This document shows positions 10,130 through 38,832 of a DNA stretch of 38,832 nucleotides, piece after piece. The stretch covers positions 1 through 38,832 of the forward strand of contig JANSYJ010000014.1 in NCBI GenBank assembly GCA_024742495.1, in the 5' to 3' direction. How positions within the stretch are numbered: the first letter of the stretch is position 1; every line of letters begins with the position of its first letter. The notes beneath the pieces are model-generated. The model did not search any database. It was not told where the DNA came from and saw only the letters and a list, made by a program, of their open reading frames with translations. This DNA comes from Bacteroidota bacterium. GTDB lineage: Bacteria > Bacteroidota > Bacteroidia > Flavobacteriales > Schleiferiaceae. The translations under genes and the position numbers were made by a program.

Positions 10130-11098
10130 ATGAATAAACTATTTCTATTCCTTAAAGGGATGGCCATGGGTGCCGCCGATGTTGTTCCAGGTGTTAGCGG
10201 TGGAACAATAGCTTTCATTACCGGGATTTATGAGGAGCTTATCGAAAGTATAAACCGAATTAATCTTCAAGCCCTAAAAACCTTGCGTAAGGAGGGTTTT
10301 GCTGCAGCTTGGAAATATATCAATGGTTGGTTTTTTGTTCCACTTTTCCTAGGAATAGGAGTATCCATTATTTCCTTGGCAAAAGGCATATCTTGGCTTT
10401 TAGAGAATCAGCCGGTTTTACTTTGGAGTTTCTTTTTCGGATTGGTCTTTGCCTCCATTTACTTTGTTGGAAAGCAAGTGAAACAATGGAGTTTTCCACC
10501 AATAGTGGCCTTTCTGCTTGGTGCGGCCATTGCCTATATGATTACCATTTTACCCGCTTCTGGTTCTAATGATGCCCTTTGGTATTTATTCTTAAGTGGG
10601 AGTATTGCAATTTGCGCCATGATTCTTCCCGGAATTTCAGGATCCTTTATTTTGGTTCTATTAGGCTCCTATTCTACGGTGCTAAATGCCATCCACGAAC
10701 GTGATTTCGCGATTATTGCCGTGGTGGGCGCAGGGGCCATCATAGGTTTACTTTCATTTGCTCGAGTTTTAAAACTGATGTTTGCCAAATACCACGATCT
10801 CACTATTGCCTTGCTATCTGGCTTTTTATTAGGGTCCTTAAACAAGATCTGGCCTTGGAAGCGGGTAGATGAAATAATGATTAAACACGCGGGTGAACCG
10901 AAGGAAGAAATAGTTCCATTAGTGGAGCAGGCGGTTTTACCAGCTGATTTTTGCAGCCCCATTATTGAGGGTTCTCAGGTGGTAGGGCAGAATGCTACGG
11001 ATCCTCAATTAGTTCCAGCGATTGGATTAGCACTGCTAGGAGCTCTCTTAATTTTACTACTCGAAAAATTAGGCGCTACTAATAAGTCAAAAGCCTAG
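10130..11098 (+). CDS. DUF368 / PopT-type polyprenyl-phosphate transporter
   Basis: This 322-residue polytopic membrane protein belongs to the DUF368 family. Work on the family (PopT) ties it to recycling of undecaprenyl phosphate across the cytoplasmic membrane for cell-wall and surface-glycan synthesis. The N-terminal signature GAADVVPGVSGGTIAF is at about residues 14-29, and a related internal block, AMILPGISGSFILVLLGSY, appears near residue 165, consistent with an inverted duplication. About eight to ten hydrophobic segments are visible. An insertion before the last membrane segment (about residues 250-295) is hydrophilic. aroE begins 1 bp after its stop, so the two are certainly co-transcribed. 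The transport role comes from family knowledge; the family assignment is firm. Confidence 0.88.
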   Translation: MNKLFLFLKGMAMGAADVVPGVSGGTIAFITGIYEELIESINRINLQALKTLRKEGFAAAWKYINGWFFVPLFLGIGVSIISLAKGISWLLENQPVLLWSFFFGLVFASIYFVGKQVKQWSFPPIVAFLLGAAIAYMITILPASGSNDALWYLFLSGSIAICAMILPGISGSFILVLLGSYSTVLNAIHERDFAIIAVVGAGAIIGLLSFARVLKLMFAKYHDLTIALLSGFLLGSLNKIWPWKRVDEIMIKHAGEPKEEIVPLVEQAVLPADFCSPIIEGSQVVGQNATDPQLVPAIGLALLGALLILLLEKLGATNKSKA

Positions 11099-31182: not shown

Positions 31183-32406
31183 ATGAAAGGCAAGCAGGCC
31201 GCAGTAGGCTTTATTTTTGTTACCGTTTTAATTGACATCATGGGCATAGGGATTATTATTCCTATAGTTCCCGAATTAATCCAGGAGCTTACTGATTTTA
31301 GCAATAGTAAATCTGCTTTTTACGGCGGTTTGTTGGCCGCTACTTATGCGGTGATGCAATTGCTCTTCGCACCAATTTTGGGAGGCCTTAGTGATAATTA
31401 TGGCCGCCGAACCCTTTTGCTGATTTCGCTTTTCGGTTTGGGCTTGGATTATTTGGTGATTGTATTTGCGCCTACGCTAGCATGGCTTTTTGTAGCTCGA
31501 ATAATTTCGGGAATTTGCGGAAGCAGCTTTACGGTGGCGAATGCTTATATCGCGGATATCAGCGAAGCTAAAGATCGGGCCAAGAATTTCGGTATGGTTG
31601 GCGCCGCTTTTGGTTTGGGATTTATTATTGGTCCAACCTTAGGTGGTGTTTTAGGTGAATTCGGTACGCGCGTTCCTTTTATGGTAGCGGCGGGTATTAC
31701 CTTGCTCAATTGGTTGTATGGCTATTTTATGGTACCCGAATCTTTGAGCGCGGCCAATAAAAGATCCTTTAGTTGGAGGCGGGCTAATCCCATTGGTACT
31801 TTAAAAAGTATTTCCAGCAATAAGGTGATTGTACCCTTGCTTATAAGCTTATTTATGATCTATGTAGCATCTCATGCTACTCAGTCTAACTGGTCTTTTT
31901 ACGCCAAGGAAAAATTTGCCTGGACACCCTTGCAAATTGGCCTGTCATTGGGTTTTGTGGGTGTTATGGTGGCTTTGGTGCAAGGTTTTATTGTGCCCAG
32001 GGTTGTAAAGCGTTTTGGCGAAATTAAAGCAGTTTATACTGGCTTTGCCTTTAATGCTCTTGGTCTCACTCTATTTGCTTTAATAAGCGAGCCATGGATG
32101 GTTTATGCGGTAATTGTTCCTTTCGCTTTAGGCGGATTGGCGGGACCCTCCTTACAATCTATTATGGCTGGGCAAACCGAAGCCAATGCCCAAGGAGAAT
32201 TGCAGGGCGGCCTCACCCAAATTATGACTTTAACGGCTATTATTGGTCCACCCTTAATGACCGGAGTTTTTCGCTATTACACCGATCCCGCCAACGAAGT
32301 TTATTTCCCCGGCGCTCCATTTATATTAGCGGCGGTATTAGCCTTGCTAAGCATTTTGGTCGCCTATCGCACCCTTTCGGTGATTGTGATGAAGAAGCAC
32401 AAATAG
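31183..32406 (+). CDS. MFS transporter, TetA/TCR-like
   Basis: This 407-residue drug-antiporter-type MFS protein has twelve predicted membrane helices. The start LIDIMGIGIIIPIVPELI and motif A GGLSDNYGRRTLL (about residues 63-75) are typical of the DHA1/TetA branch, and GAAFGLGFIIGPTLGG is motif C of proton-coupled exporters. The annotation TCR/Tet family is common for such Bacteroidota proteins, but tetracycline export is not shown. It begins 28 bp after the DUF5777 stop and may be read through from that operon. Its last codons form one arm of a 12-bp hairpin with the sequence just past the stop. Confidence 0.88.
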   Translation: MKGKQAAVGFIFVTVLIDIMGIGIIIPIVPELIQELTDFSNSKSAFYGGLLAATYAVMQLLFAPILGGLSDNYGRRTLLLISLFGLGLDYLVIVFAPTLAWLFVARIISGICGSSFTVANAYIADISEAKDRAKNFGMVGAAFGLGFIIGPTLGGVLGEFGTRVPFMVAAGITLLNWLYGYFMVPESLSAANKRSFSWRRANPIGTLKSISSNKVIVPLLISLFMIYVASHATQSNWSFYAKEKFAWTPLQIGLSLGFVGVMVALVQGFIVPRVVKRFGEIKAVYTGFAFNALGLTLFALISEPWMVYAVIVPFALGGLAGPSLQSIMAGQTEANAQGELQGGLTQIMTLTAIIGPPLMTGVFRYYTDPANEVYFPGAPFILAAVLALLSILVAYRTLSVIVMKKHK

Positions 32407-32424: not shown

Positions 32425-32911
32425 GACCGCTTCGCTTTTAGATATTAGACATGAGATCAGTCGCAGCGCTCCTTGAGAGAGGGATTGCGTTTTAGAATAA
32501 TAGGCATTACTCTGGAGCTATAGTTTACTTGATCGGTATAAGGTACCGTTTCATAATTGTTTAAAAAGAACAGTATTGGGTAGTTGCCGGCCCTAGGGTG
32601 CTGGGCTATTAAAATGAAAGTAGACGACTATTTGAGTTGGGCAGCTCCGCAGGAGATCGCCCACCGAAAAAGGAGGCTACAAACATTTGAAGAGCTAAGC
32701 ACCCAGGCCATGATTTTTTGTTTTTTTTTTATCCAAGAAAAAAGAAATATTAAAATTGAATAGGATTATAACAAAATCGTCATCCGTGCTGGCCCGGCCC
32801 AAGAGTCGATGGTCTGTGGGCAAACCGCAGGTTGGCCCAACAGAATTGCCTTTTCAGGGGCCTAGCGTTTTTGCCTACTTTTTGGGCAATGCAAAAAGTG
32901 GGGGTAAAAAA
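32425..32911 (+). repeat. Full composite repeat unit (elements A + middle + B), 487 bp
   Basis: This is the complete copy of the repeat. It starts GACCGCTTCGCTTTTAGAT, passes CATGAGATCAGTCGCAGCGC, GGCCCTAGGGTGCTGGGC, GTAGACGACTATTTGAGTTG and CCCAGGCCATGATT, then enters element B at 32786 with its hairpin at 32874-32902. A second unit starts at 32912 with the same GACCGCTTCGCT. Parts occur at 1-690, 34840-35016 and 38232-38712. No transposase, integrase or terminal inverted repeats are present. Confidence 0.85.
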
Positions 32912-33309
32912 GACCGCTTCGCTATTAGAACCTAGACATGAGATCATTCGCTGCGCTCCTTGAGAGAGGGATGGCGTTTAAAAGTAACGAGCATTACTCC
33001 GAAGCTAAATTATACGAATACAGTAAGAGGCACCGCAACTAAAACACCTAGACCGAATAGTATTGCTTAGGTTTCGGCCCTAGGGTGCTGGGCTATTAAA
33101 ATGAAAGTAGACGACTATTTGAGTTGGGAGTTGAGGCTGCAAGCCGAAACCATGAACTCCTTTAAAAAATTAATTAGTTGTTCATAACCGACCGCAGGAG
33201 ATCGACCACCGAAGCAGGAGACTACAAACATTTGAAGAGTTAAGCACCCCGGCCTGAGAGTCGATGGTCTGTGGGCAAACCGCAGGTTTGACCGCAGAAT
33301 TACCTTTCA
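32912..33309 (+). repeat. Second composite repeat unit, shortened and with an insertion
   Basis: It follows the first unit directly. Its first 175 bp (32912-33087) match 34840-35015 far better than they match the first unit. The middle segment matches the other copies, except that a stretch of about 60 bp near 33128-33190 replaces the short CAGCTC of other copies. Element B is reduced to 33251-33309 (GAGTCGATGGTCTGTGGGC, CCGCAGAATTACC) and lacks the hairpin. The rest of 33310-33423 is AT-rich and leads to the next gene. Confidence 0.8.
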
Positions 33310-33378
33310 TGTACCAATCCTTTTTTCATAGTTTTGAAAGATTCAAAATTATAAAAGAGCCTAGGTGGTTGTCTCAAT

Positions 33379-33423: not shown

Positions 33424-33957
33424 ATGGATAAGAGAATTTTATTTATTCAGATGTTATTCTTTCTCGGAGTTAATGCCTTTGGGCAAATGGATAGTATTTC
33501 AATTTTTAGGATTGAAGCGAAATCATTTTTACTGCAAGCACCTCAAAATGATCTTGAAGACTTCATCCCAGATTCCGATGACATCGGAATATTAGTATTT
33601 GAAAGTGATTCGATCGGTAAAGTTTTTTTTAGGGCTTTTTATTTACGAAAGGCTTATGTTCCTGACTTCGAAGAATACCTAAAGGATAAATTTATTTTCA
33701 CAACTGATTCTTTAGGAGGCACTTCATTATATTATATTTCCGAGAAGGATCAAGGTTTTTTTATAGGAGATGGCATTAATGCTTTAAGGAAGTTTAGGCA
33801 ACTACTGCCAGATGAGTTTAGCCTTTATAGAGAGCATAAGAATTCTGGATATTATATTAGACCAGGCCTTAATATTTTGATATTTGGAAAATATATCGGT
33901 GATAATAGGATTATGATATTCAGAGGTTTAAATAGTCCTCCATTTATTTTAGACTAA
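33424..33957 (+). CDS. Unrecognised secreted protein (177 aa)
   Basis: I do not recognise this protein. It has a signal peptide (MDKRILFIQMLFFLGVNAFGQ), then about 155 residues of mixed alpha/beta character with many aromatic and acidic residues (DFIPDSDDIGILVFESDS, LRKFRQLLPDEFSLY). No catalytic motif or internal repeat stands out. The reading frame is clearly AT-richer than the operons to the left, and the gene is isolated between repeat unit 2 and an RHS remnant. It has the look of an acquired accessory gene, possibly an orphan immunity or effector partner, but that is only context. Confidence 0.7.
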   Translation: MDKRILFIQMLFFLGVNAFGQMDSISIFRIEAKSFLLQAPQNDLEDFIPDSDDIGILVFESDSIGKVFFRAFYLRKAYVPDFEEYLKDKFIFTTDSLGGTSLYYISEKDQGFFIGDGINALRKFRQLLPDEFSLYREHKNSGYYIRPGLNILIFGKYIGDNRIMIFRGLNSPPFILD

Positions 33958-34031
33958 AATTTAGCGTCCGCTCCGTCAAAAATCAAATATAAAACTACAA
34001 GAGGTATTTCTCTTTAGTTTAATAATAAAGA

Positions 34032-34148
34032 ATGGGAGTAGATACAGGCCTGTTCTATTATGGAGCGCGGTATTATGATCCTAAGATTAGTGTTTGGCTG
34101 AGTGTGGATAGATTTGAATTAGAATCCATGGAAACTATGACACTATAG
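34032..34148 (+). pseudogene. RHS-core remnant (39 codons)
   Basis: This short frame encodes GLFYYGARYYDPKISVWLSV followed by D, the conserved C-terminal core of RHS-repeat/wall-associated proteins, which normally precedes a variable toxin domain. An in-frame stop (TAA at 34026) lies just before it, so the thousands of bases of RHS repeats expected upstream are gone. After the core, only 12 unrelated codons (FELESMETMTL) remain before TAG. The next gene starts 6 bp downstream. I read it as the leftover end of an RHS gene, not a functional gene. Confidence 0.85.
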
Positions 34149-34154
34149 AAATAA

Positions 34155-34619
34155 ATGAAAAGAATAATAGCATTTTTCGCCTTAATTTTAAGCACCCATT
34201 TTGCAATTGGTCAAGATGGTTCGGGAATGACTTATTACTGGTCAAGTTTGGTACAATCAATAGAGGGTTCGCGCTCCTATGAAAAAAGATCCTCTCCAGA
34301 CTTATTCCCCTTGACTGCTTGGATAGAAATAGATTCAAATTCATTGAAGAATGATTCAATAGCGATGAGGATTCATCTCGTGAGTATATCTGATAGTAGC
34401 TCTAGGTTTTTTATGAGCACCCTTTTCTTATCTTCAAGATCTTCATTGAATGACAATCGTCGAGATGTATACTTGGTAGATAAGTACATTCTTGAATTAT
34501 CCGCAAGACCAACGGTTTCGGATTGGATAAAAGTCCATAGGAGTGGAGGTATAATGATAACGCAGTCAACGGCGTGTAGCACCAGGGTAAATGTTGGGAT
34601 ATTTCCAGTAATGGAGTGA
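34155..34619 (+). CDS. Unrecognised secreted protein downstream of RHS remnant (154 aa)
   Basis: This protein starts with a signal peptide (MKRIIAFFALILSTHFAIGQDG) and has about 135 further residues, polar and serine-rich (SRSYEKRSSPDLFPL, SISDSSSRFFMS), with hydrophobic strands and no motif I know. Its ATG lies 6 bp after the stop of the RHS-core remnant, the position where immunity genes of RHS toxins normally sit. A role as an immunity protein to a lost or distant RHS toxin is an inference. The export signal would suit a toxin acting in the periplasm. Confidence 0.65.
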   Translation: MKRIIAFFALILSTHFAIGQDGSGMTYYWSSLVQSIEGSRSYEKRSSPDLFPLTAWIEIDSNSLKNDSIAMRIHLVSISDSSSRFFMSTLFLSSRSSLNDNRRDVYLVDKYILELSARPTVSDWIKVHRSGGIMITQSTACSTRVNVGIFPVME

Positions 34620-34732
34620 ACCTATATACGGAAAATATCATGGGATGTCCAATTTATTGGTCCCTTTTAATACTCCCTCAGGTTAAAAGTGCAGAAAATG
34701 ATTCATACAAACCATGAGTTTCTGAATTTTCA

Positions 34733-34860
34733 ACAAGGCATTGAAAGAGAACCTTTATACAGAAGGCCTCAAGTCCTACAGTGATTTAAGCCAGCAACGT
34801 GCTGAGTATGCCTTAAAGCGCTGGGATATTGTTAGATCAGACCGCTTCGCTATTAGAACC
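34733..34860 (+). pseudogene. Unidentified ORF fragment cut by repeat element A
   Basis: An open frame reads NKALKENLYTEGLKSYSDLS and then QQRAEYALKRWDIVRS. It enters repeat element A at 34840, where it continues only as SDRFAIRT before a stop. An in-frame TGA lies just before it, so neither end is intact. The residue composition is protein-like, but I do not recognise the family. It is probably a leftover of a gene disrupted when the repeat arrived. Confidence 0.45.
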
Positions 34861-35016
34861 TAGACATGAGATCAGTCGCTGCGCTCCTTGAGAGAGGGAT
34901 GGCGTTTAAAGGTAGCGAGCATTACACCGAAGCTAAATTACACGAATACAGTAAGAGGCACCACAACTGAAACACCTAAACCCACTAATATTGCTTAGGT
35001 TTCGGCCCTAGGGTGA
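34840..35016 (+). repeat. Element A copy, directly repeated with 32912-33087
   Basis: GACCGCTTCGCTATTAGAAC, CGCTCCTTGAGAGAGGGATGG, GAATACAGTAAGAGGCACC and TTGCTTAGGTTTCGGCCC follow the same order as at 32912, with roughly ten differences over 175 bp. Similarity stops at CCTAGGGTG (about 35015); beyond it lies coding-like sequence instead of the middle segment. The two copies flank a 1.75-kb segment that holds the gene at 33424, the RHS remnant and the gene at 34155. Confidence 0.85.
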
Positions 35017-35124
35017 AATTATGGGGAGAATACGAATGAAATCCGAATACCGAAGGAAATAGGTAATGGCCCTGATAACGAAATTATTCCTGGTGAATGG
35101 GAGAATGGAGATGTTAATGAATAG
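35017..35124 (+). pseudogene. C-terminal tail of a truncated protein
   Basis: Directly after the repeat boundary an open frame of 35 codons reads NYGENTNEIRIPKEIGNGPD and then NEIIPGEWENGDVNE before TAG at 35122-35124. It has no start, and a stop (TGA at 35014) belongs to the repeat. Its last codons overlap the ATG (35117) of the next gene, an arrangement typical of a natural operon junction. I interpret it as the surviving end of a gene whose 5' part was replaced by the repeat, plausibly an RHS toxin tail. Confidence 0.55.
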
Positions 35125-36310
35125 AATAAAAAGCCTTTTAATCATGCTAGCCCTTTTAATTAGCTTTAACTCTTACGGGGTAATAGTTAGTTCTATGGAG
35201 CAGTTTGAGCAAGCCCTCGCTGAAAAGAAGCATACATGGTACAGCATCTGGTTTGACTTCACTTCGATACCCGTGGATGATCTTGATCTTTCGGGTATAA
35301 CTGGAGTCTCATTTGACGAAGATCTTGATCCGCGCTACTTAAAACACTTTCCTGATTTACGAACTCTTGTGGTTAATGGCGAGGTCAGAGGTACTTTTGA
35401 TTTACTTCTTTTACCACCCACATGTACAAGAGTTGGTTTCTACACTGATGATCAAGTTGATTTCTTTTGCTCCTCTCAAAAAGGGAGGTTTCTCAACTTG
35501 GAATCTCTTCGGATTAAATATAAGAGAAACCTAAATCTTTTAAATTTTATTGATACCGTCGAGCAGCTCGATATTCCCCTTGCAGAGGGTTTGGGGGTGG
35601 AAATTGAAAGTAAGGGTATATCCGGTCTTAAAGTGCTTACGCTGCATGGTTGTCCAGATAGGACTTCTTTAGATGGATTTAACATTGAAGAACTTAGCGC
35701 CCTTGCGTTGATTGGTTGTGAGAATTTAGACTCCACCTGTATCGATGGCTTTGGTGACCTTAATTTAAAGTGGCTTTCAATCCAAGAATCCAAGGCCAAG
35801 GAAGGTTCGGCTATCTCATTAAGAAGACACAAACATTTGAAAGGTTTGATTTTAAAACAGTCAAGAATTCCTTTTTTGTTCTTAGCTTCAGACTCTTTAG
35901 GCCTATTGTTAACCGATCGATTTCACGCAAACAAAATTTACCTTGAGTCTTCAGCTGATTCTGTATATCTGAGCTTTCTCAAGTCTAGTGTAAATATTAG
36001 CCCACACCATAACTTTAGTTCTGCCTTAAGGATGATTTTAGTCGACAAAGAATCCCATGTTAAAGGCCTCAGTGCAAAGTTTTATCCTGAACTTAGGGTC
36101 TTAGACTTTACAAATCCTGCCGCATGCCTTTACGATATCAATAAGATTAAGGCACTGAATCTTGACTATAAAAGGGACTCTAACCTAGAAGATTATTACC
36201 CTGATATTAGCTTTATCACAATTGATCAAACTAATTTAGGCTTTGAAGAAGAGTTTTTAAGTCAGCTAAATAATGCAGATTGGCAAGAGATGATTAAAGC
36301 TTTGTATTAG
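35117..36310 (+). CDS. Secreted leucine-rich-repeat-like protein (397 aa), unrecognised
   Basis: The protein has a signal peptide (MNRIKSLLIMLALLISFNSYG) and a body with irregular leucine-rich-repeat rhythm: LKVLTLHGCPDRTSLDGF, LSALALIGCENLDS, LKWLSIQESKAKEG and LKGLILKQSRIPFLFL. Such repeats form curved binding surfaces. I chose ATG 35117, which overlaps the end of the truncated upstream frame (stop 35124) and begins exactly at the signal peptide; in-frame ATGs at 35066, 35105 and 35111 would put extra residues before it. Its coupling to the truncated tail suggests it was the second gene of an effector-partner pair. LRR-like immunity proteins are conceivable, but no family match can be claimed. 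Confidence 0.7.
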   Translation: MNRIKSLLIMLALLISFNSYGVIVSSMEQFEQALAEKKHTWYSIWFDFTSIPVDDLDLSGITGVSFDEDLDPRYLKHFPDLRTLVVNGEVRGTFDLLLLPPTCTRVGFYTDDQVDFFCSSQKGRFLNLESLRIKYKRNLNLLNFIDTVEQLDIPLAEGLGVEIESKGISGLKVLTLHGCPDRTSLDGFNIEELSALALIGCENLDSTCIDGFGDLNLKWLSIQESKAKEGSAISLRRHKHLKGLILKQSRIPFLFLASDSLGLLLTDRFHANKIYLESSADSVYLSFLKSSVNISPHHNFSSALRMILVDKESHVKGLSAKFYPELRVLDFTNPAACLYDINKIKALNLDYKRDSNLEDYYPDISFITIDQTNLGFEEEFLSQLNNADWQEMIKALY

Positions 36311-36468
36311 GAAACGAGGGGTGCCGGGATTTGGCTTAAAGCTGGTAATACTCCAAATTATTTGTTTTGCAGTTAGTAATATTTAAATTATTGAAAATCA
36401 ATGGATATTTCTCCTTTTTTCAAAGAAAGGGGAGTAGTTCATAAAGGGTACCTTTAGATTTGTTGCGT

Positions 36469-36505
36469 TCTAATTTTAATCAGTCGAATTACCTGGAAGC
36501 TTACA
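36469..36505 (+). repeat. Short upstream repeat TTTTAATCAGTCGAATT, copy 2
   Basis: TTTTAATCAGTCGAATT and GGAAGCTTACA match the sequence before the gene at 33424 (33379-33414). Here it lies 24 bp before the gene at 36529. A third, weaker copy at 36995-37028 reads GTTGAATATTTCGGGAAGCTTA and has no gene immediately after it on this strand. Confidence 0.5.
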
Positions 36506-36528
36506 GAACCATTCCACATAGAATTTAG

Positions 36529-36921
36529 ATGATGATTGTAAATTTTTTTTCAATAGCAGCTTTACTCGTTTTGTGTAATCCTAGTTTTTATTTTGTGACT
36601 AAAGTGGACTATTCTAATTGGGATAAAGGATCGGGGGTAGGAATAGTCTGGCTTGAACGTGAGGGTTCAAGCTTTAAGGTTTTAGTGCACAGAGAAAACA
36701 ACTTTGGCAACCAGTTGCCACAAGTTTCAGACTCAATTCATGTAGCACTTGAGAATTATAGTTATAGCGAGTGTAATATCGAGGGAAATGTTAAATGGCA
36801 TCCTGGATCTAATCAACCTAGGTGCTGGACTAATTTAAAACATACCGTTTGTCCAGATACGGATAGCACTTACCTCTATTATATCTTAACTGATGAGGAA
36901 CTTCTTAGGTTGAAGGATTGA
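36529..36921 (+). CDS. Unrecognised small exported protein (130 aa)
   Basis: This protein begins with a hydrophobic segment (VNFFSIAALLVLCNPSFYF) that could be a signal peptide or anchor. The remaining 105 residues contain three cysteines (SECNIEGN, QPRCWTN, HTVCPDT), and W/G-rich beta-like sequence (KGSGVGIVWLEREGSS). The odd cysteine spacing suggests disulfides outside the cytoplasm. Two ATGs in tandem (36529 and 36532) are possible starts. I do not recognise the family. The upstream repeat it shares with the gene at 33424 suggests a common origin for the two loci. Confidence 0.6.
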   Translation: MMIVNFFSIAALLVLCNPSFYFVTKVDYSNWDKGSGVGIVWLEREGSSFKVLVHRENNFGNQLPQVSDSIHVALENYSYSECNIEGNVKWHPGSNQPRCWTNLKHTVCPDTDSTYLYYILTDEELLRLKD

Positions 36922-37062: not shown

Positions 37063-38169
37063 TTACAACCTGTCGTCTTTTTGTTGGAGCATATTTTCCC
37101 ATGGCTCACTTAAGCCATAGGTACGACCCTTCTTAGAAGGATTAATTATAACCACGAAGTCCATCTCAATCCATTCTTTCAAATTGCGATACACCGCTCG
37201 GGAGGACACTCCAAGATGATCCGCTATTTCCTGCAAGCTTACTTCCTTTGATTTCTCAAATAGCGACAACACTTGCTTTTGCATGGGACGAAGTTCTCTG
37301 ATTTTTTTGACCTGATCCACTTGGGGAAGGGATTTATACTTCTCCACTTCCTTTCGAACACTGCTAAAAGAGAGTGCCATTCCCGAAAGAAAATACTCCA
37401 GAAAAGGGGTGACATCGGCTTCGGCTCTGCCCATATAGTAATTATGATTATCTCCAATATTTAGAGCTTCATAATAAGCCAAGAGGTTTTTCGCATAATA
37501 TTCTTCCAGTGAATAAATCCCTTTTAAGCCGTACCCCATATTATGCAATAGTAAAGTAGTTAGCAAACGCGCCGTTCTACCATTGCCATCGTAATAGGGG
37601 TGAATGGTGGCAAATTGATAATGTACCAAACCAGCTATAATAGGAGCCGGCAATATCTTTCCTTTTATTTGCAGATTCATCCATTCGGATAAAACCTTCA
37701 TCAATTTAGGAACATCCTTTGCCTCGGGAGGCATGTAAACAATCCTAGCCGATCGGTTATCTCGAATAACATTTTGTCCCTCTCGGTAAGGTGTACCTCG
37801 CTTAGCACCCTTTAGTACCAAAGAATGAATTTCCTTAATCTGTTTTTCGGTAATCGACGAATCTTGACCAACTAGACTTTCAACATAGGCCAGTGCTTTG
37901 AAATAGTTGCGGACCTCCCGTTCATCTCGGTCTTTGCCTGGAAAACCACCTTTATGCCCCTGAGCCAATTGTTCTACCTCCGATATAGCAAGAGCATTAC
38001 CTTCAATTTGGGTAGAATAGTGGGTCGATATCATACGAGCCGTTTCCCGTAAAGATGCCACCATTCGTGCATTGATGGGCAAAACATCAATCGCTTCTTT
38101 ATGGCGTTCTATCTCTAGAAGGGTATTGGTTAATGCTGGAGTTATGGTGAATTTAGGTGTGAATTCCAT
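37063..38169 (-). CDS. Fic family protein with N-terminal inhibitory motif and C-terminal HTH
   Basis: This 368-residue Fic-domain protein transfers AMP (or another nucleotide-derived group) to target proteins. The Fic motif HPYYDGNGRTAR is at residues 190-201 with the catalytic histidine H190. An N-terminal inhibitory motif, STQIEGN (S52 to N58), matches the [S/T]xxxE[G/N] pattern of self-inhibited class II Fic proteins, with E56 as the blocking glutamate. The C-terminal 75 residues form a winged-helix-like DNA-binding region (VSLQEIADHLGVSSRAVYRNL). This Fic-plus-HTH architecture is common in Bacteroidota. No toxin or antitoxin partner is adjacent. Two tandem TAAAGTGCAA repeats lie upstream and could be its operator. 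Confidence 0.9.
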   Translation of the reverse strand: MEFTPKFTITPALTNTLLEIERHKEAIDVLPINARMVASLRETARMISTHYSTQIEGNALAISEVEQLAQGHKGGFPGKDRDEREVRNYFKALAYVESLVGQDSSITEKQIKEIHSLVLKGAKRGTPYREGQNVIRDNRSARIVYMPPEAKDVPKLMKVLSEWMNLQIKGKILPAPIIAGLVHYQFATIHPYYDGNGRTARLLTTLLLHNMGYGLKGIYSLEEYYAKNLLAYYEALNIGDNHNYYMGRAEADVTPFLEYFLSGMALSFSSVRKEVEKYKSLPQVDQVKKIRELRPMQKQVLSLFEKSKEVSLQEIADHLGVSSRAVYRNLKEWIEMDFVVIINPSKKGRTYGLSEPWENMLQQKDDRL

Positions 38170-38231: not shown

Positions 38232-38309
38232 GACCGCTGCGCTTTAAACTCAGACCGCTTCGCTGTTAGATATGAGATCTTAGACCGGTCGCTTTGCTCC
38301 CTTTTAGAC
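38232..38309 (+). repeat. Degenerate element A fragments
   Basis: GACCGCTGCGCTTTAAACTC is followed by GACCGCTTCGCTGTTAGATA, TGAGATC and GGTCGCTTTGCTCCCTTTTA. It is a scrambled, doubled version of the start of element A. The stretch 38310-38560 that follows holds no gene that I can support. Confidence 0.6.
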
Positions 38310-38567
38310 TTAATACTGCAAATAACTTCGTGATTCTTCCAAATAGCCATTCTCTAATCAGACTCAATACTATTTAGTGATTACTAACTTCAATATTGGA
38401 TCGCTCTTTAAGCTTTAGCTAAAAACGTATTGACGAATCACCACTACAAGCAACGGACAGGACTACGGAGCGAGAGGGCCCCTGAGCAGCAATAATCGCT
38501 CGTAGGGCAATCATTAGGAAAAAAGTGGCTATAAAAATTGAGTGGGATTTTAACGAAGTCGTCATCC

Positions 38568-38712
38568 GTGCTGGCCCGGCCCAAGAGTCGATGGTCTGTG
38601 GGCAAACCGCAGGTTGGCCCAACAGAATTGCCTTTTCAGGGGCCTAGCGTTTTTGCCTACTTTTTTGGCAATGCAAAAAGTGGGAGGAAGGCCGCTTCGC
38701 TTTTATGGTTCG
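38568..38712 (+). repeat. Element B, copy 4
   Basis: GTGCTGGCCCGGCCCAAGAG through GGCCTAGCGTTTTTGCCTAC and the hairpin at 38656-38684 to GCTTCGCTTTTATGGTTCG. It continues past the element for about 10 bp in agreement with copy 1 at 69-215 (TTATGGTTCGRCAARCT), so these two copies are closest at that end. The remainder to 38832 has no gene that I can support. Confidence 0.85.
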
Positions 38713-38832
38713 GCAAGCTATTAGATTAGCTTCTTTAAATTCAGGTAGTTTTTAATGGAGTAAAATCTGAGCAACCAGAGGGTAAAGGTGAACTAGTTCG
38801 ACAGTTAAGCATAGGCTTCAGGTGAGCAATAG

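Follow-up and report, generated by a model that had tools for sequence, protein, structure and literature searches.

ERIC elements are imperfect palindromes of about 127 bp. Their copy numbers differ among taxa (PMC10969869). BOX elements of Streptococcus pneumoniae are composite, have a predicted fold and are over-represented between convergent genes (PMC3049150). REPINs are described as REP doublets linked to RAYTs (PMC3116915). In attC sites, structure is better preserved than sequence, and a single complete integron is named for Bacteroidetes, in Salinibacter ruber (PMC9024848).

Here we describe repeats found in a window of 38,832 bp, the whole stretch of DNA that was analysed, and in the genome to which it belongs (own genome, G000; 3,606,072 bp in 32 contigs). 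They are modular, folding, species-homogeneous interspersed repeats that matched no Rfam family where searched and most resemble BOX and ERIC. With moderate confidence, we read them as non-autonomous, structure-dependent repeats of the BOX/ERIC kind, amplified separately in each species by a putative trans-acting enzyme. Large interspersed repeats that show strong compensatory evolution across species yet lack any recognised mobility enzyme are, to our knowledge, few. Should the fold be what spreads, the partner enzyme would be a concrete target, to be sought by comparing family genomes with and without the repeats.

Modular organisation of the repeat

The repeat family is real: the 487-bp unit at 32425–32911 has 78 BLAST matches in the own genome at E ≤ 0.001, the best with E 4.4e-256. 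Five copies are nearly full-length, each covering at least 478 of the 487 positions (contigs C18, C10, C12, C30 and C21), which shows that the order A-middle-B is itself repeated. A pattern for the head matched 52 times genome-wide versus 0 times for its reversed control. The recurrence is not chance. We found no description of this repeat in the openly licensed literature, and a phage collection searched with it gave no match.

The unit at 32425–32911 (+ strand) consists of a head, core1, a U-run/hairpin and the 3′ part of core2. The 48-bp head (32425–32472, +), in which degenerate 7-bp repeats are visible by eye, is common to core1-type and core2-type units. Core1 (32588–32713, +) is an imperfect palindrome with compensatory changes; it folds with −51.1 kcal/mol (z −5.06) and scores 135.5 bits with R1, the covariance model of core1, whose training alignment includes this copy. 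What the unit has of core2 (32747–32900, +) is the 3′ part, terminal hairpin included; it matches profile positions 69–220 and lacks the 5′ part present in the full-length core2 at 38460–38653 (+), a row of alignment A4. The RNA fold of 38460–38700 has a z of −2.60 and was equalled by 2 of 200 shuffles. Across copies, the head measures about 48 bp, core1 about 127 nt and core2 about 190 nt.

Partial copies recur in the window, all on the + strand. A second unit directly follows the first (32912–33335), with a core1 at 33075–33258 that is 184 nt rather than 126 nt long owing to an insert of about 58 nt, and then a truncated core2 end. A head with a 5′ body of core1 type lies at 34840–35015, and the head of a core2-type unit at 38253–38300 is followed by a further partial match at 38518–38689. 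The contig start carries the 3′ part of a core2 (18–189), a core1-type unit (264–592, core1 at 425–550) and a head with the start of another unit (593–700). Two weak − strand matches (433–541 and 32596–32704; 65–66%) are the palindrome matching itself.

The head joins either of two bodies, of core1 or core2 type, at a spacing of about 115 bp to core1 in the 32425 unit and about 160 bp to core2 in the 38253 unit. The first-pass annotation had taken the ordered 487-bp stretch as the unit. Its order does recur, but the head is found with a full core2 body as well (38253–38689), so that the stretch is a composite and not the elementary unit. Contig C17 carries tandem copies of about 203 bp made of head and 5′ body without a full core1. 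In some copies, inserts of about 57 nt sit in the hairpin loop or near the core1 apex. Such loop inserts of about 57 nt appear in several species (L063 9440–9720; L041 17340–17400; L195 1501–1685), and one own insert copy is, by eye, apparently inverted relative to the others. Some repeat clusters span 1–3 kb, and some also contain diverged core2-like copies in opposite orientation.

Two further claims of the first-pass annotation hold within the window and change when the genome is considered. Repeats do lie at both ends of the window, but these are the ends of contig C18, the window being this whole contig, so that they are contig-end repeats. Several further matches are close to contig ends, which suggests that assembly probably stops at the repeats; draft genomes of this group are probably fragmented by them as well. 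Likewise, copies said always to point in the same direction do so in the window but not genome-wide. Among 45 clusters in fetched loci of the own genome and of G003, a second copy-rich genome, 31 are strand-pure and 14 contain opposite copies, with the reservations that two of the 45 are one cluster split by a fetch boundary and that palindromic copies carrying an insert may have their strand miscalled (the L045 copy at 10291 is + in the tally and − by R1). On contig C12, copies are + at 652–655 kb, − at 663–664 kb and + at 673–674 kb.

Compensatory changes keep both folds

Compensatory changes keep the folds of both modules. In a genus alignment of core1 (23 copies from two species, 29 pairs), 97.8% of the cells are paired and both sides have changed in 6 of the 29 pairs. 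Doubly changed cells number 41 versus 16.3 in shuffles, and neither this count nor the covariation score was reached by any of 500 shuffles; the count of doubly changed pairs is not above shuffles, 284 of 500 reaching the same number. Core2 (27 copies from three species, 23 pairs) is 98.1% paired, with 71 doubly changed cells versus 25.2 in shuffles (reached by 0 of 500) and double changes in 7 of 23 pairs, a number equalled by 48 of 500 shuffles. Across three genera, 22 of the 29 core1 pairs covary, a number that none of 500 shuffles reached, and there are 188 doubly changed cells versus 42.6 in shuffles, in an alignment of 45 rows (31 forward, 14 reverse-strand palindrome matches) that leans towards the core1 model, to which its distant rows were fitted. 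Slid controls collapse in all three alignments; in the core1 genus alignment they are 30–49% paired, with at most 1 doubly changed cell.

Across genera, the stems of core1 have been rewritten, and the apical sequence and the ends are nearly constant. Two internal loops of core1 consist of tandem G.A; in the genus, 23 of 23 copies retain the first and 22 of 23 the second. Watson-Crick pairs take the place of the first in G006, G010 and G013; the second persists in G002 and G006 and is absent from G010 and G013. Five single copies folded on both strands gave z values of −2.4 to −5.9. Searches against Rfam gave 0 matches at gathering scores in the window and 0 at E ≤ 5 in four repeat-bearing loci.

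The first-pass annotation had proposed a family that spreads or is maintained, which is supported and now joined by a conserved fold. It had suggested looking for compensatory changes in the predicted stems, and such changes occur in core1 and core2. It had also named random orientation and neighbours, together with no conserved structure, as what would speak against it: orientation does vary between clusters and neighbours are diverse, yet conserved structure is clearly present.

We also considered whether the loop of the terminal hairpin forms a pseudoknot with sequence upstream of it. Of 95 distinct hairpins, 8 showed complementarity of at least 6, versus 1.2 in shuffles (with a maximum of 4 over 200 runs). 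In the listed loop types, the complementarity came from G010 and G005, the own genome's commonest types lacking it, and we do not claim a pseudoknot.

Acting strand and a possible RNA function

A folded module could act as RNA. The repeats could be a structured non-coding RNA, or a 3′-UTR or terminator element, with a host function, in which head-forward core RNAs would bind a protein or shape transcript ends and gene conversion would keep the copies alike. We regard this reading as possible but rather unlikely. It draws on the covariation of core1 and core2 and on the conserved G.A loops of the genus copies. In three alignments the consensus energy is better on the forward than on the reverse strand (−30.7 vs −24.0, −12.1 vs −10.3 and −21.9 vs −19.0), and most aligned copies have U-runs after the closing stem. 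Among pairs predicted on both strands, GU outnumbers AC by 18 to 1 in alignment A6 and 10 to 0 in A4, cells that are not independent and, in A6, lean forward by construction because the alignment was made to a forward-strand model; in A3 the two are equal (2 and 2). Taken together, the forward strand is weakly favoured as the putative acting strand. A first GU/AC count (19 GU, 2 AC) was dropped for this strand-neutral one, as it was biased by a structure predicted on one strand.

Several observations stand against the RNA reading. The reverse strand alone folds about equally well in 4 of the 5 single copies. A strict Bacteroidota-type promoter pattern was found upstream of 0 of 77 core matches, 6 of which are opposite-strand palindrome matches, and a loose version in 2 of the 77 upstream stretches versus 6.1 in shuffles. 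No consistent neighbour was seen. Where clusters lie between tandem genes, 5 run along the direction of the genes and 10 against it. A replication-strand bias is not claimed either, as GC skew is weak and the G003 clusters are about evenly divided in a hand count.

Distribution and homogeneity among genomes

R1 matched in 6 of 88 family genomes: 19 times in the own genome, 20 in G003, 3 in G002, 5 in G006, 7 in G010 and once in G013, with a few of these being the opposite strand of the same palindrome. G010 and G013 represent two further genera with core1 matches. The core1 motif occurred in 3 of 60 family genomes, all of the own genus, and R2 matched 4 of 296 order genomes, again all of the own genus. 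First-look filters bound these surveys to 39 scored candidates per genome for R1 and 8 for R2. A wide distribution was considered and set aside, the exact core1 loop pattern being present in 1 of 395 phylum genomes.

The identity of core1 copies is 86% and 92% within genomes versus 74% between them, with overlapping ranges. For core2, the contrast is 87–88% within versus 51–56% between genomes, and the ranges do not overlap. The repeats were amplified or homogenised separately in each genome compared.

Under our preferred reading of BOX/ERIC-like repeats amplified in each species, the set of each species would be copied from a few master copies, or homogenised by gene conversion. The putative trans-acting enzyme would recognise the folded form, and the need to spread, rather than a host function at each site, would preserve the fold. 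Through homologous recombination, tandem units and heads on both sides could enlarge clusters and bring in foreign genes. As a counterpoint, the homogeneity within genomes could come from gene conversion without mobility. Any mobility, transcription or cassette role of the repeats is putative.

Genes in and around the repeat clusters

The repeats are intergenic, often between convergent genes, and accessory genes, type II toxin and Fic genes among them, occur inside clusters. Considering clusters with a flanking ORF of at least 120 aa on both sides, 10 of 28 were flanked by convergent genes, compared with 31 of 279 other neighbouring pairs in the same loci (p 0.0013). A link to RHS-like loci had been proposed in the first-pass annotation and was not borne out: 0 of 10 singly tested neighbours carried an RHS domain, and there was none among the 25 of 83 and 25 of 64 families listed.

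In or beside clusters, the own genome encodes a Gp49/HTH pair, ParE and YoeB toxins and a Fic protein, and G003 encodes ParE with an antitoxin, a DUF1016/YhcG protein, YoeB and Phd/YefM. Within 1 kb of repeats lie 3 of 6 own ParE/Gp49 genes (p 1.1e-4), two of the three in a single cluster, and 1 of 7 in G003 (p 0.11), which is not significant on its own; repeats with 1 kb around them make up 1.8% of the own genome and 1.6% of G003 (fetched loci only), and the test is post hoc, its families having been picked after toxins had been seen. The clusters look like collecting places for toxin–antitoxin and other accessory genes. Repeats are also borne by the small contigs C6, C11, C4 and C31 (L074, L071, L072 and L073); six of the larger proteins on them have no Pfam match at E ≤ 0.001.

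Genes between same-direction heads, namely a YoeB toxin in L065 and a Gp49/HTH pair with a ParE toxin in L060, bring to mind integron-like cassettes. Heads and folded cores would then be single-strand recombination sites, and a putative recombinase would move toxin–antitoxin and small genes. The enrichment of toxin genes near repeats would fit, as would a fold kept while the sequence changes, which attC sites share (PMC9024848); same-direction sites with small genes between them are likewise reminiscent of attC arrays and CALIN. We nevertheless consider this reading doubtful. The integron integrase model TIGR02249 matched three loci of the own genome, all below the 265-bit cut-off. GTT stands at the expected place of the R-box in 21 of 52 heads, and 11 of 52 carry the full GTTRRRY, so the triplet is not conserved in the heads searched. 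The repeats form many clusters scattered over the chromosome, and many units have no gene between them. The best TIGR02249 match, a 378-aa gene on C22, was rejected as an integron integrase, being below the cut-off and by eye an ordinary tyrosine recombinase. We also give little credence to a family-specific cassette platform without integron integrase, in which a putative recombinase or transposase would read the folded forward strand, copy units and move toxin–antitoxin and small genes between clusters.

REP/REPIN elements moved by a Y1 (RAYT) transposase are a very improbable source. The repeats are intergenic palindromes in sometimes tandem clusters, as are REPs (PMC3116915), and Y1_Tnp was matched in full in G010 and G013 and in part in G001 and G006. 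But the repeats are much longer, Y1_Tnp gave no match in G000, G002, G003, G004 and G005, of which G000, G003 and G005 are rich in copies, and the perfect hairpins at the Y1 loci of the relatives are of other sequence, with no R1 match at E ≤ 5 in those of G001, G006, G010 and G013.

Comparison with BOX and ERIC

The claim that mobility genes are absent held for the two families that the genome-wide search for a mobilising enzyme covered, Y1_Tnp and TIGR02249: it yielded no Y1_Tnp and only the below-cut-off TIGR02249 matches. Of the features expected of a MITE, no inverted pair of at least 30 nt bounds the 487-bp unit, and no defined ends or target duplications were seen. No excision or insertion was seen within one strain.

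Returning to the BOX/ERIC-like reading, the repeats share with BOX ordered modules in variable copy number, some in tandem (head-core1, head-core2 and the C17 copies), a fold predicted if transcribed and an excess between convergent genes (PMC3049150). They differ from BOX elements as described in their modules and sizes. Their cores of about 127 and 190 nt carry cross-species compensatory changes, and some of their clusters reach 1–3 kb, with toxin and Fic genes inside. As with ERIC, core1 is an intergenic imperfect palindrome of similar length found in several genera of a family at varying copy number. Unlike ERIC, it belongs to another taxon and sits in a composite with a head and a second structured module.

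Occupied sites and an accessory island

When 207 own ORFs of at least 100 aa from fetched loci were searched against the 14 repeat loci of G003 (224,011 bp), two shared neighbourhoods and scattered single-gene matches emerged. In L075/L210, G003 has about 1.7 kb including repeats between carbonic anhydrase and LytTR genes, where the own genome has a gap of 26 bp. This is the sole clean occupied/empty pair, and its whole spacer is replaced, not simply interrupted. L067/L207 have two adjacent genes in common (64–66% identity). In the own genome, the repeats stop 34 bp short of the shared HU-type gene, and the nearest repeat found in G003 is about 2.4 kb from it, beyond a 561-aa gene; as the other flank differs, this is not a clean empty site.

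In the window itself, the genes from 23900 to the end of an MFS transporter gene (31183–32406, +) are syntenic with L097 (isolate ih4, CP051243.1) and L098. The transporter, identified by tblastn against both loci and with MFS_1 listed for one member, is the last window gene syntenic with these relatives. Their genes from about 1.7 kb (L097) and 0.75 kb (L098) past the MFS gene match the end of the own contig C25, whose terminal repeat unit points in the same relative direction. Neither 15-kb locus has a core match. Given this synteny break and the lack of core matches in those loci, the sequence from 32425 on resembles an accessory island that has same-direction repeats at its borders and is absent from the two relatives. 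C25 probably follows C18, to judge by synteny and not by the assembly. The putative island holds four accessory ORFs without a Pfam match (177, 154, 414 and 130 aa; 33424–36921, +), with the partial unit at 34840–35015 among them, and a Fic/DOC-domain protein between repeats (37063–38169, −; PF02661, E 1.3e-18).

Some minor observations concern contig ends. By eye, window positions 38705–38832 and L072 4050–4180 share the same sequence after the last head, so that a further repeated element probably lies beyond these two contig ends. At the start of contig C26 (L068 1–140), a frame shortly after a repeat head resembles by eye the start of an IS3-type transposase, which suggests an IS inserted in a repeat cluster. 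Near the end of the own C25, L076 5340–5954 encodes a 204-aa protein without a Pfam match, and a relative of it (57% over 202 aa) lies at L207 7602–8162, in a repeat cluster elsewhere in G003.
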